NCBI RefSeq assembly: GCF_000001735.4
Contig: NC_003075.7
Location: 373,001 to 437,000, forward strand
From: Arabidopsis thaliana
Taxonomy: Eukaryota > Streptophyta > Magnoliopsida > Brassicales > Brassicaceae
Reading direction: 5' to 3'
Length of the DNA stretch: 64,000 bases
Positions 37,170 to 48,694 of the stretch are shown one piece after another; within the stretch, counting starts at the first letter, position 1; each line of letters begins with the position of its first letter. Under the pieces are notes generated by a model. It searched no databases and was not told where the DNA came from. It saw nothing but the letters and a program-made list of their open reading frames with translations. The position numbers were made by a program, and so were the translations under genes.

Positions 37170-39217
37170 ACTTTCAGATATTCAAAAAAATAAAATAAAA
37201 ATTCTTTTTTTTTTTTTTGAATTTAAATTAGAGAAAACCGATCCGGAGATTTTCTCCGGGATCCGAATACACATTCTTTACAGAATCGCCAAGAGAAGAA
37301 TGATCACATAAATTTTGGCGGCAATTTCGACGGCGAAAAATGTCGTGGATCCATCTCAAACTTTCTTCCACGAGAAGAAACTTGGACGCCGGTTGGTGAA
37401 GCGATTTCTTCTCGTGGCTCAGCGGTCGTGTCGGCCTCTGCAACTACGGCGGAAGTCGATCGAGAGAAGGTGGGTAGTGCCAATTCGCCATGGAGGTTAA
37501 CGGTGGATCCTCCTGGTTTTGTTGGTTGTCGCGGATTCAGTGTGTTTGGGTGTTTCGTTTGAGCCATCGGCCTCAAACACCACCGTGACTTGCTTCCTCT
37601 TGGCCGGTTGAAGTTTTTTTGTTCGGTAAATCGGAGATTCGTTGGATTGGGAAAGAGGGGTTATGTTTGAGTTTGTCGGCTTGCTAGGTACGGGAGCTGA
37701 CAACGGCGTGCCGTGATGTCGGAGGGTTGACCATGCCGAGAGATTTGTGGTGGAAACGGTTGGTCGCGGGAAAAGGAATAGTAGCGGGAGTCAGATGCTT
37801 CCTCTCTGTTTACTAGATACTTCGATCTGCTGCAAAGCTGTGGTTTTCGCATTCGTCGGTGCTAATGGTCGGCTTCTCTGCGTCACGGTGTCACTAGGGC
37901 AAGATCCTCTTTTCCGGTCCCGACAATTTTTTTCGTTTTTCCTTTGTTTTTGGTTTTCTTTGTAAACAAAACCCCAGTCCAATTGTGTAGGTTATATTAA
38001 AAAAAAAAAAAAAAAAAACTCATAACGGGAATTGAATTTTTTAAGGGTTTCGGGAGGGAACGTAAGTTTACGTAACCACGTCACCAGAATTGAAAAGAGA
38101 ATATATTAAGGCCTGTATTAGAGCCCAATACTATATTTCCAAGGCTAAATATCTAAGCCCAATTATTAGGTCAATTAAAGAAAGAACACAACATCCTTTT
38201 GAGAAAAAGGTGTAATCCATATTTCTCTTTCCATTTTTATTTGCTAGGTTCTCAAACTAAATTTAAAACTGATCAGCAGAATATGTGTTTCAAATTTCAA
38301 ATATGTTAGTTTACATTTTCTAATTAGTAAGTTAAATTCTTGGTTATATCAAAAAGGTAGATCATGATAATTCATGAGCATTAGAAATTTAGATATGAAA
38401 ACTGGTAGAATAACAAACAATTGATATATGTAACCAAGATTTAATCTAACGTCTGCACTACGTTCACTGTCTAGTCATGAAAGTACTTTTGTATTTTTGC
38501 AACGACTTCATAGTAGCCATATATTTGGTCTAGTTAGTGGACAAGTTTTATATAGACTTTACAATTATTGAATTCATTACCCAAATTTCCCCCTCTGTAT
38601 CTTCTTCTTTAGGGTTGCGACTTTTATTTTCTACCAAGGGTTTGATTGGTTTAAAATACAGCTGTTACGGATGTGGATGTGAGAGTTTTGGGCCGTTTGA
38701 AGTGATATTAAGCAATTTATATGATTAAATTAGCAATTGGAGACATGTGCATTTGCGAAAAAATTATAAATGGTGACAAGTTGTCAACATTTGTGGTTGT
38801 AGTTTAGCATTAAAATTACCAAAAATTCATATAATAATATAGTTTATACTAAAAACAAAATTTCTATCATTAATTATAAGAAAACTGTACAAATTTTTTT
38901 AAAATAAATGATAAAATAGATAATTTTAGTTACGAAATTGAAACATAACAAGAAATAGTTAGTTTTATTGTAAAATACGATGAAGAGAGAGAAAAAAAAA
39001 ACAAAAAATAGTTTTAAGAGGTTGAAAACATATTTTAAATATAAGGAAAAAAAATTATAATTATAAATATATTTTATTTCGTTAGTACAAATATATAGAA
39101 AGAAGTCAACGTTCAACGAAGGTGATGAATTACATGAAGGTGAGTAGTTTTCTGAGTTTCTTATGTTTACAGGAAGGTGATGAATGTTGAGATCGATTCA
39201 ATCAACGTTCAACGAAG
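37170..39217. other. Intergenic, partly GC-richer, no recognised gene
   Basis: 37260-37950 is less AT-rich than its surroundings and has short open frames on both strands, but none shows a recognisable domain. A 19-base A run lies near 38000. The rest is AT-rich spacer leading to the receptor gene. Confidence 0.3.
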
Positions 39218-42200
39218 ATGGTGATGATTTCTTATAAGTTAAATTTGGTTTTGATCATAATCTTGATCGGAGGATCTTTTAACGACCTACGAGTTTCTTC
39301 TGCCGCGGCTAATTTGACCGAAACTTGTAACGGAATATGTGGTGGATTGACTCTGTCTTATCCCTTTGGGTTTTCTCTTGGTTGTCCGATCCAATTCAAT
39401 TGCTCTGCTGCGGGCCAAGGGGCGAAGATCGGAGAGTTTCCCGTCCAAAACGTGACGGAAAACAGTATATTGGTCGGCGTTCCAACCAATTGTACTCGGA
39501 AGATTGAAGACATGACTCCGCTTTTCGGCAAGCAGTTCACACCATCGTCGGAGAACAGTTTCTTAATGGAGAATTGTGTGAATCCAACCAATGGCTGCTC
39601 CATAAACCAAAGATTCCTTGATAAACAGCTGAAAAGTTGTGAATCCACGGGAAATATAAGCTGTTTTCCGTCAGATACGAGTTCAAAAAGTTCAGAATTT
39701 CTCAGTATGAAGGAATTGACGAATAGCTCGTGCCGTTTGTTGTACACGTCGATAGCTCTCGAGTCTGTAGGTGTGAATGTGGGGATAGCGGTAGAGTTTG
39801 AACGAGTTCGGTTAGGTTGGTGGCTAATGGGAGGTTGCGAAAACGGAACTTGCGTAGTAAACGCAAATTGTACAGATGTTTACACTCCCGATGGATATGC
39901 AGGACACCGGTGCTCATGTCTTGAGGGTTACCACGGAGACGGATACATCAATCCTTGCTTGAAACTGAGAGGTTAGTCAATCTAAAGTCTTTGTACCCTT
40001 TTAACATTTGTATTAATCAAATGAGGAATCAAATTTCAACCATCATAGCTAGTGGAGACCACCGCTACGACAAGGCTCTCCAACCATGGTTTCAATCAAG
40101 AACTTAAGCATTTTCCAGTCTCCATAGTTATAATTTTTACCTGTATTTTTTAGAGAAGTTAGGAAAACAATATGTTTTTCAAACATAATTGTGAAACTAA
40201 TACATATACTATTTATAATTGGCAAACTCCCCATGTATGTTTTACTGTGCTCCACTGTTTTAAATACATTGTAACCCTTATATATTTTTTATATTTAGGA
40301 CAATGCTATAGGTATATTTTATACATTAAAAAAAAAGAAAAAAAAAGAAAAATAAGATATGCATTTTGTTTAATAATTTTTAAATTTTAAATTAGAGAGT
40401 ACTAAACAAATAATATCTACACAGAGCCTTTTGTTAAACTTAAACGAAGGTTCTCTCAAGTATGCTTTGTGGCAGGGCAGCCATTGGGATATCACGGTTC
40501 TTGGCCTACTTTCGCGCTATCACACTGCTTACCATTCCTTTATTCACACAAACCCTTCGATGACTTATCGGCTGCCTTGCTTGAGGAATAGTTGATCTGA
40601 TTCCATTCAATTGGCTTAGATTCAATAGCAGTTGATTTTGGGCAGTAATCTGCAGGTACTTTTTCTAAGTAAGAGATTTTGCATTTTTTGAGTCAGGATC
40701 AACCATCACTCTCTTCACAGCCACCCTATTCATCTCTGCTTCAACATACAACGAACGCCCCCGATCAGTGCAATGGGACGTGTCTATTTATCTATCTCTT
40801 GACTCGAAATGGGAGCAGGTTTGAAAAAGGATCTTAGAGTGTCTTTCTTCTATGTAGAAGGATATTCATTATATTAGGTTGGATTTTACTTAAAGGCTGT
40901 TCCTGAAGGCCGAAAAAAAGAGAGACTTCTGGGCTCGCAATAAAGCTAAGGTCCTGATCGAGCAACTAGTCGTCCTATCTATCCACCTCTCCAAACACAA
41001 ATATAATTCACTGTACAGATATAGACCACAGTACATATATAAATTATTGTACAGATATAGACCACTGTACAGACCCCGGTAATTTGTTTGACCAAAACAA
41101 AAAAAAAACAGAATACTCTTCATTAACTACTTCTGTGTGTATGAGCTGAGATTATCAAATTTTGTAACCTAAAATATAATATAATATTTATAATGTACAA
41201 CTACTTTATTGTTTCTAACAATTTATTTCTTAATAAATTTTAGTTTTGGCAAGAAATGTCAGAGTAAAAATCATTATTGCTGTGGGTTGCTCTGTTATTG
41301 GTTTAGCCGTAACCGCAGTCTGCTTTTACTTGAGGAATAAAAGAAAGGAAAAAAAGAGACATGAAGGTGGATTTTTTAGTCATAAAGGTTGAAAAACTAT
41401 CTTCTTTGAGAGTTTTTTATTTTTTTTTATTTTTTTTTGAGAGTTTTAATTTTAAAAGACACTTTTTGTTTTATTGCTTTGGGATCAGGCAAATATGTCG
41501 AAGATCAGAAGATTAAAGATGCAAAATTATTGCAACTTGACTTTGATACCATAAGATTAGCAACTAATGACTTCTCTCCTTACAACCATCTTGGTGAAGG
41601 TGGTTTCGGTGCAGTTTATAAGGTGAATGATTGATTAACTGATTTTTACTTATACCATAAGATTAGCAACTAAAGACTTCTCTCTAACATGTGTTTCAAT
41701 AAACACCAGGGCGTCCTTGATTCCGGGGAAGAGATAGCTGTGAAAAGATTGTCAATGAAATCAGGACAAGGAGACAATGAGTTCGTAAACGAAGTCTCAT
41801 TGGTTGCGAAACTTCAACATCGTAATCTTGTTAGGCTTTTAGGTTTCTGTTTTAAAGGAGAAGAACGACTTCTCATCTATGAGTTCTTTAAGAACACAAG
41901 CCTCGAAAAGTTCATATTTGGTACCTTAAAACACTAAACGCAAGCATATCTATCTCTAGTAACTAATAAAAATGAATTTCTCATACTTATATCGTTTTCT
42001 TTTTTCAGATTCTGATAGAAGAATGATCTTAGATTGGGAAAAACGTTATAGGATAATCTCAGGTGTTGCTCGAGGTCTTCTCTATCTCCATGAAGATTCT
42101 CATTTCAAAATTATTCATAGAGATATGAAAGCTAGCAATGTTCTATTGGACGATGCAATGAATCCGAAAATCGCAGATTTTGGGATGGTAAAATTGTTTA

Positions 42201-43180
42201 ATACTGACCAAACAAGTCAGACCATGTTTACAAGCAAAGTTGCAGGAACTTAGTAAGCTGCCCAAAAAGTACCCTTTTAGTACTACCAATTCTATGAAAA
42301 AAGATTTTTAAAAACCATTTTTTTGGGTCGTTGCAGCGGTTACATGGCTCCTGAGTATGCAATGAGTGGGCAATTCTCGGTGAAAACCGACGTATTTAGT
42401 TTCGGTGTACTAGTCCTTGAGATCATTAAAGGTAAGAAAAACAATTGGTCTCCGGAAGAACAAAGCTCATTATTCCTCCTTAGCTATGTAAGTGAAAAAT
42501 ATTATTGTTTAATTTTGATTTTTATGCAAATAAACTCTCAAAGTCTTCTATTTTTACAATTTTACTCTCTACGTCCAAAATAAAAAAATATACAAAATAA
42601 TCATATGAAGTCAAAACTAATACGCAATATAGCCGATTTTTGCAACTTTACATATATTGTAAACGTTTTCAGATATAGTTGAAATCTTCATCTCAAGGGC
42701 TTCAATTTGATATATTATTTATCGAAATTTTAAAATTTGGTAATAGCGAAAAAAGCTATATTGTGTATTATTTTTATTTCATATGATTATTCTGCATTTT
42801 TGGACGTGAATGATAAAGTTGCAAAAATGGACGACTTTGACATATATTCAACTCATGTATAGGTGTGGAAATGCTGGAGAGAAGGAGAAGTGTTGAACAT
42901 TGTGGATCCAAGTTTGATTGAAACAAGAGGTCTAAGTGATGAGATCAGGAAATGCATTCACATTGGTTTGTTGTGTGTTCAGGAGAATCCAGGGAGTAGA
43001 CCAACAATGGCTTCTATTGTTAGAATGCTCAATGCAAATTCTTTCACTTTACCGAGACCCTTGCAACCCGCTTTTTACTCAGGAGTTGTAGACTCATCGT
43101 CAAGAGACAACAATCATACAAGAAACCCGCGTATTGCGTCTTTGAATGATGTTACAATTACGGAGTTAGATCCTCGTTGA
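39218..43180 (+). CDS. Chimeric receptor kinase: WAK-like ectodomain joined to CRK kinase (At4g00955 + At4g00960)
   Basis: Seven exons keep one open frame of 644 residues: 39218-39971, 41244-41366, 41489-41622, 41710-41920, 42009-42252, 42337-42487 and 42863-43180. Exon 1 gives a signal peptide ([13 protein letters not shown]), a cysteine-rich GUB_WAK pectin-binding-type domain ([20 protein letters not shown]) and an EGF-like end ([16 protein letters not shown]). Exon 2 is the transmembrane helix ([21 protein letters not shown]), the same length (123 nt) as exon 2 of CRK41. The kinase has [10 protein letters not shown], the lysine in [18 protein letters not shown] and APEYA, so it should be active. 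The kinase exons match the neighbour CRK41 in number, length and phase. Public annotation, as I remember it, splits this into two genes; the alternative is that exon 1 ends as a soluble 252-residue protein (stop just after the donor) and that the kinase part starts separately, but no ATG precedes it. Confidence 0.7.
40425..40990. other. Organelle-like (probably mitochondrial) insert in intron 1
   Basis: Within the 1272-bp first intron, this stretch is clearly less AT-rich than both sides and has no plant-intron look (GGCAGGGCAGCCATTGGGAT, ACTTTCGCGCTATCACACTG, CTGGGCTCGCAATAAAGC). Its composition resembles non-coding plant mitochondrial DNA. This is a style judgement: I cannot align it to the organelle genome here. 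Confidence 0.4.
41006..41076. repeat. Short imperfect repeat around TGTACAGATATAGACCAC
   Basis: The 18-base word TGTACAGATATAGACCAC occurs twice, about 41 bases apart, and CTGTACAGACC follows. It lies in intron 1 of the chimeric receptor gene. Confidence 0.6.

Positions 43181-45436: not shown

Positions 45437-48694
<3,258 letters not shown>

Follow-up and report, generated by a model that had tools for sequence, protein, structure and literature searches.

Gene structure at the locus

The window, that is, the whole stretch of 64,000 nucleotides of Arabidopsis thaliana DNA that we analyzed (C4:373001-437000, on Chr4), contains seven exons at positions 39218 to 43180 that join into a single reading frame of 644 amino acids plus a stop codon (Table 1). 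The introns have phases 1, 1, 0, 1, 2, and 0, and all six begin with GT and end with AG, which bears out the single reading frame described in an earlier note on this DNA. Exon 1 ends at a phase 1 donor (AGAG/GTTAGT). By their coordinates, we take the kinase half of this fusion locus to be CRK44 (At4g00960), the next gene downstream to be CRK41 (At4g00970), and exon 1 to be AT4G00955. The two CRK names go with these identifiers in passages of PMC3095361.

Table 1. Features of the fusion locus and its neighbor (positions in the window)
Feature	Positions	Strand	Remarks
5' leader	39157..39217	+	blastn block 39157-39994: homology to the WAKL14 5' leader
Exon 1	39218..39971	+	copied from WAKL14 exon 1; N-terminus resembles a signal peptide, ectodomain resembles GUB_WAK and EGF
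WAKL14-type start of intron 1	39972..39994	+	by alignment; came along with exon 1
Dispersed repeats, left part	40015..40425	.	blocks 40015-40114, 40148-40349, and 40356-40425
Inserted 100 bp	40426..40525	.	source not found; a 37-bp part is 97% identical to Chr5 (C5)
Organelle-like DNA mosaic, 475 bp	40526..41000	.	abutting pieces of 68, 98, and 311 bp
Dispersed repeat, right part	41001..41073	.	directly next to 40357-40425 of the left part in a copy on Chr1
Retained CRK-type intron 1 and final bases of old CRK exon 1	41075..41243	+	old donor after 41078
Exon 2, CRK-type TM exon	41244..41366	+	acceptor TTTTAG, 9 nt upstream of the lost ancestral one
Exon 3	41489..41622	+	juxtamembrane region and glycine loop
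Exon 4	41710..41920	+	kinase; Met353 is the earliest methionine in the kinase half
Exon 5	42009..42252	+	kinase; HRD and DFG motifs
Exon 6	42337..42487	+	kinase; APE motif
Exon 7	42863..43180	+	end of kinase, C-terminal tail, stop
CRK41, tandem neighbor	45437..48694	+	7 exons, 665 aa; DUF26-type exon 1 intact

The fused protein matches the Pfam kinase domain at residues 325 to 595 (160 bits), and its translation contains all four of the catalytic kinase motifs (the AVK lysine, HRD, DFG, and APE). It has a hydrophobic, transmembrane (TM)-like segment at about residues 259 to 281 and a second one at the N-terminus. The former is encoded in frame by exon 2, which bears on whether the gene belongs with the CRCKs (cytoplasmic CRKs), which have no signal peptide, ectodomain, or TM segment: the locus contains a TM exon that the mRNA may include, whereas the published CRK44 has no TM segment. 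From the junction, there is no methionine until residue 353, which falls inside the kinase domain and past both the glycine loop and the AVK lysine, and the fusion frame has a stop at 41234, directly 5' of the TM exon. This agrees with the claim that no ATG precedes the kinase part.

When the coding exons are aligned to WAKL14 or CRK41, every gap is a multiple of 3. Together with 644 codons that are free of stops, this is beyond chance. A pseudogene that had decayed while remaining in frame was rejected, with zero stops and zero frame-breaking gaps.

The ectodomain exon is a copy of WAKL14 exon 1

Our genome-wide searches covered 119.7 Mb in seven contigs. Elsewhere in the genome, the protein encoded by exon 1 matches C2:9990456-9991202 (71%) and C5:26665247-26665876 (40%). 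The first match continues into a WAK-type kinase, and from its coordinates (9.99 Mb on C2), this locus is presumably AT2G23450. In passages of PMC4053735, AT2G23450 is WAKL14 and AT5G66790 is WAKL21.

The DNA homology to WAKL14 runs from 39157 to 39994 (80% identical) and takes in 61 nt of leader, exon 1, and 23 nt of intron; the donor GTTAGTC is common to both genes. All eight gaps in the coding alignment are multiples of 3, and the noncoding gaps are of 8 nt in the leader and of 1 and 2 nt at the start of the intron. In the protein alignment, 169 of 244 residues are identical, and all 16 of WAKL14's cysteines are retained. Over these 244 codons, dN is 0.173 and dS is 0.475, for an omega of 0.365 (bootstrap interval, 0.26 to 0.53); this is a pairwise value, not a branch-specific one, and the top of the interval is close to the value that is possible with one unconstrained branch. 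With WAKL21 as the third sequence (about 41% identical to exon 1), 17 residues changed in the exon 1 copy only and 14 changed in WAKL14 only. No match to WAKL14 was found upstream of 39157 (in 37950 to 39156). Because the homology stops there, the WAKL14 promoter either was not copied or was not retained, and we rejected a copied promoter as a feature of this locus.

The earlier note had placed GUB_WAK and EGF domains in exon 1. Homology to WAKL14 upholds this assignment, but the Pfam scores fall below the cut-offs (13.8 versus 29.4 bits for GUB_WAK and 17.3 versus 28.5 bits for EGF), and exon 1 is absent from the 58 GUB_WAK matches in the genome (E of 0.01). WAKL14's own GUB_WAK score (25.7 bits) is also under the cut-off. 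We label the exon as WAKL-type because it is homologous to WAKL14 and not because of its Pfam score. No solved structure related to exon 1 was found at E values of up to 1.

The leader has two small features of its own. A 14-codon upstream open reading frame (39180 to 39224) runs past the main ATG (39218) to end, within TGATG, at the second in-frame methionine (39224); the corresponding frame in WAKL14 has an earlier stop, which lies within the 8-nt stretch that is missing from the fusion leader. Also, CAACGTTCAACGAAG occurs twice directly 5' of the start codon (39100 to 39220), so that a small piece of the WAKL14-type leader has been duplicated locally.

The kinase half is a tandem duplicate of CRK41

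The kinase half and CRK41, which sits 2.3 kb downstream, are identical at 326 of 388 aligned residues (84%) and share the seven-exon plan and the intron phases. The kinase and the exon plan are thus those of a CRK, and the two DUF26 domains are missing: Pfam found no DUF26 in the fused protein, and when the CRK41 ectodomain was compared to the window with tblastn, it matched CRK41 itself only. This agrees with the claim that the DUF26 ectodomain is gone. Nor is the kinase of the WAK type, as the WAKL14 kinase aligns to it in two stretches, at 32% and 28%. No remnant of DUF26 or of the WAKL14 kinase was found in the locus; the WAKL14 kinase query matched CRK kinases only (28 to 50%). The earlier note also pointed out that the TM exon has the same length, 123 nt, as in CRK41. 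The length is correct, but it is a coincidence, because a start that is 9 nt further upstream offsets a 9-nt in-frame internal gap.

Between the kinase half and CRK41, dS is 0.219 and omega is 0.354 (bootstrap interval, 0.24 to 0.53). Given the dS of 0.475 between exon 1 and WAKL14, the two duplications need not be a single event. For exons 2 to 7, omega is 0.94, 0.52, 0.21, 0.18, 0.09, and 0.55. The value for the TM exon, which has 38 codons, does not demonstrate constraint on that exon. Between the junction and Met353, omega is 0.565 with an interval that reaches 1.12. Selection is thus not demonstrated either for the residues that depend on exon 1, which counts against a single gene.

Using two CRK genes from another locus (L021) as outgroups, and leaving out 46 differences that could not be polarized, we assigned 22 nonsynonymous and 14 synonymous changes to the CRK44 branch and 18 and 13 to the CRK41 branch (Fisher P = 0.81). 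Neutrality of the CRK44 branch was rejected by a simple binomial test (P = 0.011). In simulations that assigned half of each dS to the fusion lineage, the chance of observing zero stops was 0.0065 for exon 1 and 0.0125 for the kinase half; between the junction and Met353 it was 0.375, which is uninformative.

Within intron 3, 33 bp (41652 to 41684) are 97% identical to part of CRK41 exon 3, so a little exon 3 sequence has been duplicated there.

The junction intron

The DUF26 exon of CRK41 has its last base at 46259, and intron 1 comes next. The part of the fusion locus that can be aligned to this border begins at 41075 and includes the old donor; the score of this alignment was matched in none of 1,000 shuffles of two-base blocks. 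With WAKL14 found as the source gene, both breakpoints placed, and phase 1 introns at the border between ectodomain and TM segment in both parents, so that the WAKL donor can join the CRK TM exon in frame, the exon shuffling that had been suggested for this locus holds up. We regard it as well supported by these sequence comparisons that the gene structure arose by exon shuffling between the two parents named above.

The joining intron is 1,272 nt long, having been lengthened by an insert. The parts of a dispersed repeat that end at 40425 and start at 41001 are neighbors in a copy on Chr1 and lie 575 bp apart in the fusion locus. The block at 40015 to 40114 matches different copies and may be a separate repeat. 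Of the three pieces of the mosaic, the 68-bp piece is 100% identical and the 98-bp piece 99% identical to contig C6 (367,808 bp), which we take to be the mitochondrial genome. The 311-bp piece is 100% identical to C2:3394509-3394819, which is 3.2 kb from C6-identical sequence; Chr2 presumably contains a large insertion of mitochondrial DNA. We rejected the mitochondrion as the origin of the 311-bp piece: its sole full-length match is on Chr2, and C6 gives a partial match at 90% (N stretches are possible). Overall, the mosaic has 1 mismatch in 477 aligned bp, so at the usual nuclear rates the insert would be young, and its presence probably differs between accessions.

Splice sites at the junction

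The TM exon acceptor reads CAG/GAAA in CRK41 and in both of the L021 genes. Because the fusion has CAA in place of CAG, the ancestral acceptor has been lost, and the TM exon starts 9 nt further upstream. Five AG acceptors would place the first exon base between 41082 and 41261, and only the one at 41244 keeps the frame and leaves it open.

We scored these sites with a matrix built from 20 introns of the parent genes and related genes. The donor at 39971 and the old CRK donor (41078) both score 8.3, and the former ranks third among 92 GTs. The acceptor at 41244 scores 2.0 bits, which is rank 24 of the 81 AGs in 40000 to 41400 and is under all 20 of the training acceptors (4.2 to 16.1). Also, stronger decoy AGs lie inside the insert (10.9 at 40481 and 10.3 at 40697). 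Both results count against a single gene. However, two other acceptors of the fusion score low as well (0.2 and 0.9), which shows how poorly such a small matrix discriminates.

The stronger decoys, the near identity of the insert to organelle-type DNA, and the omega of the TM exon would all fit with an ancestral fusion that was functional and is now decaying in the reference accession, where mis-splicing or early polyadenylation would leave little or no fused receptor. We consider this unlikely, as the seven exons have neither stops nor frame-breaking gaps and the ratio of nonsynonymous to synonymous changes on the CRK44 branch resembles that of CRK41.

Two other features of the intron concern possible exons. 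A 60-nt open, in-frame segment (41019 to 41078), which is mostly repeat-derived, ends at the retained CRK donor and might serve as a cryptic exon. Of 1,154 acceptor-donor pairs in this intron, 25 keep the frame and leave it open, so the segment is not evidence for such an exon. An exon within intron 1 was rejected as a start for the kinase: there are 10 candidates that run from an ATG to a GT in phase 1, and only one of these reaches 6 of 9 donor matches; it would contribute three residues.

One gene or two

Unspliced, exon 1 reaches an in-frame stop (39974 to 39976) directly past its donor and has no TM-like segment past the N-terminus. The locus could therefore be two genes, one for a secreted WAKL-type protein of 252 residues and one for a separate cytoplasmic CRK44 kinase. 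In passages of PMC4511522, CRK43, CRK44, and CRK45 are described as having no signal peptide, ectodomain, or TM segment. For the kinase half, this confirms the earlier note's statement that the halves are annotated as separate genes; for the other half, we did not find the name AT4G00955 in the literature that we searched. Passages of PMC6368629 count a single loss of ectodomain and TM segment that is specific to A. thaliana, and the gene, which these passages do not name, may well be CRK44. However, the first methionine of the kinase half comes too late to include the glycine loop and the AVK lysine, a CRK TM exon lies in frame directly upstream of the kinase, and the donor of exon 1 is identical to WAKL14's. 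We think that two separate genes are improbable. As a matching in-frame receptor exon lies just upstream of the kinase, the two have probably been joined into one hybrid receptor, and on balance we favor a single WAKL14-CRK44 receptor gene.

A proposed origin and role for the fused receptor

As the homologies show, the 5' end of WAKL14 (its leader and exon 1, with the beginning of intron 1) was copied and ended up 5' of a tandemly duplicated CRK41. That duplicate has lost its DUF26 exon and kept its old intron 1 from the donor onward. The predicted product is a single-pass receptor kinase whose outer domain is of the WAKL14 type and whose TM segment and kinase are those of a CRK. The outer domain perhaps reads cell-wall polysaccharide, and the kinase, with all of its catalytic motifs, would signal into CRK pathways; we infer that the shifted acceptor is used and that the fused receptor is expressed and functional. 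The description of the ectodomain as "cell-wall-sensing" would be carried over, by analogy, from the WAKL family. According to passages of PMC11684076, oligogalacturonide responses do not require WAKs, and evidence for binding by WAKLs comes from WAKL22 and WAKL14, not from the exon 1 copy, so wall sensing by this copy is a guess.

The organelle-like insert, which is probably recent, has brought the joining intron to 1.27 kb and may lower correct splicing in the reference genome. It is conceivable, but doubtful, that the insert sets the output of the locus, with insert-free accessions making the fused receptor and the reference making a mixture of the receptor and a secreted ectodomain decoy. 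If so, then the reference genome would hide the receptor from annotation.

Relation to known receptors

The fusion shares the ectodomain exon, its donor, and the phase 1 intron with WAKL14, which has its own TM exon and a WAK-type kinase instead of the CRK-type TM segment and kinase. With CRK41, it shares the TM and kinase exons, the seven-exon plan, and the phases, but CRK41 has a DUF26 exon in place of the WAKL exon, and the acceptor of its TM exon is not shifted. In grass CRKs, as described in passages of PMC6368629, a concanavalin-lectin-type kinase was swapped in and DUF26 was retained, whereas the fusion has kept its kinase and has an ectodomain from another receptor family. A parallel in design is the engineered chimera WAK1-EFR (passages of PMC11684076), which likewise couples the outer domain of a WAK to the kinase of another RLK, but it was made in the laboratory, from WAK1 and EFR rather than from WAKL14 and a CRK.

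If the locus makes one transcript, then CRK44 would be no cytoplasmic kinase but a receptor headed by a WAKL14-type ectodomain, and its place in phenotyping and evolutionary studies of CRKs would change. It would also be a natural counterpart to WAK1-EFR and would demonstrate that the outer domain of one receptor family can cooperate with the kinase of another. The locus also offers a readable case of exon shuffling via phase 1 introns, in which a repeat marks the junction. Passages of PMC7333395, PMC6368629, PMC11684076, PMC4053735, and PMC4511522 contain no description of a WAKL14-CRK44 fusion. A homozygous crk44 insertion line was not obtained under the conditions of PMC4511522, according to its passages, and in those of PMC6563486, At4g00960 is named only in the title of a supplement, in connection with water use and flowering.

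Search for other WAKL-CRK fusions

No second WAKL-CRK fusion was found among 20 of the 58 GUB_WAK places in the genome, some of which overlap, and WAKL14. At an E of 1e-25, there are at least 22 CRK-type matches to exon 5, including CRK44 itself (150 of 756 candidates were scored), and among these, only CRK44 and CRK41 lie within 50 kb of exon 1 or of a GUB_WAK match on Chr4. Conversely, when the 20 GUB_WAK places were tested with CRK44 exon 5, 13 of them matched, with a best score of 70.5 bits. The same exon scores 56.2 bits against WAKL14, 53.1 bits against WAKL21, and 124 bits against L021, which is a true CRK locus.
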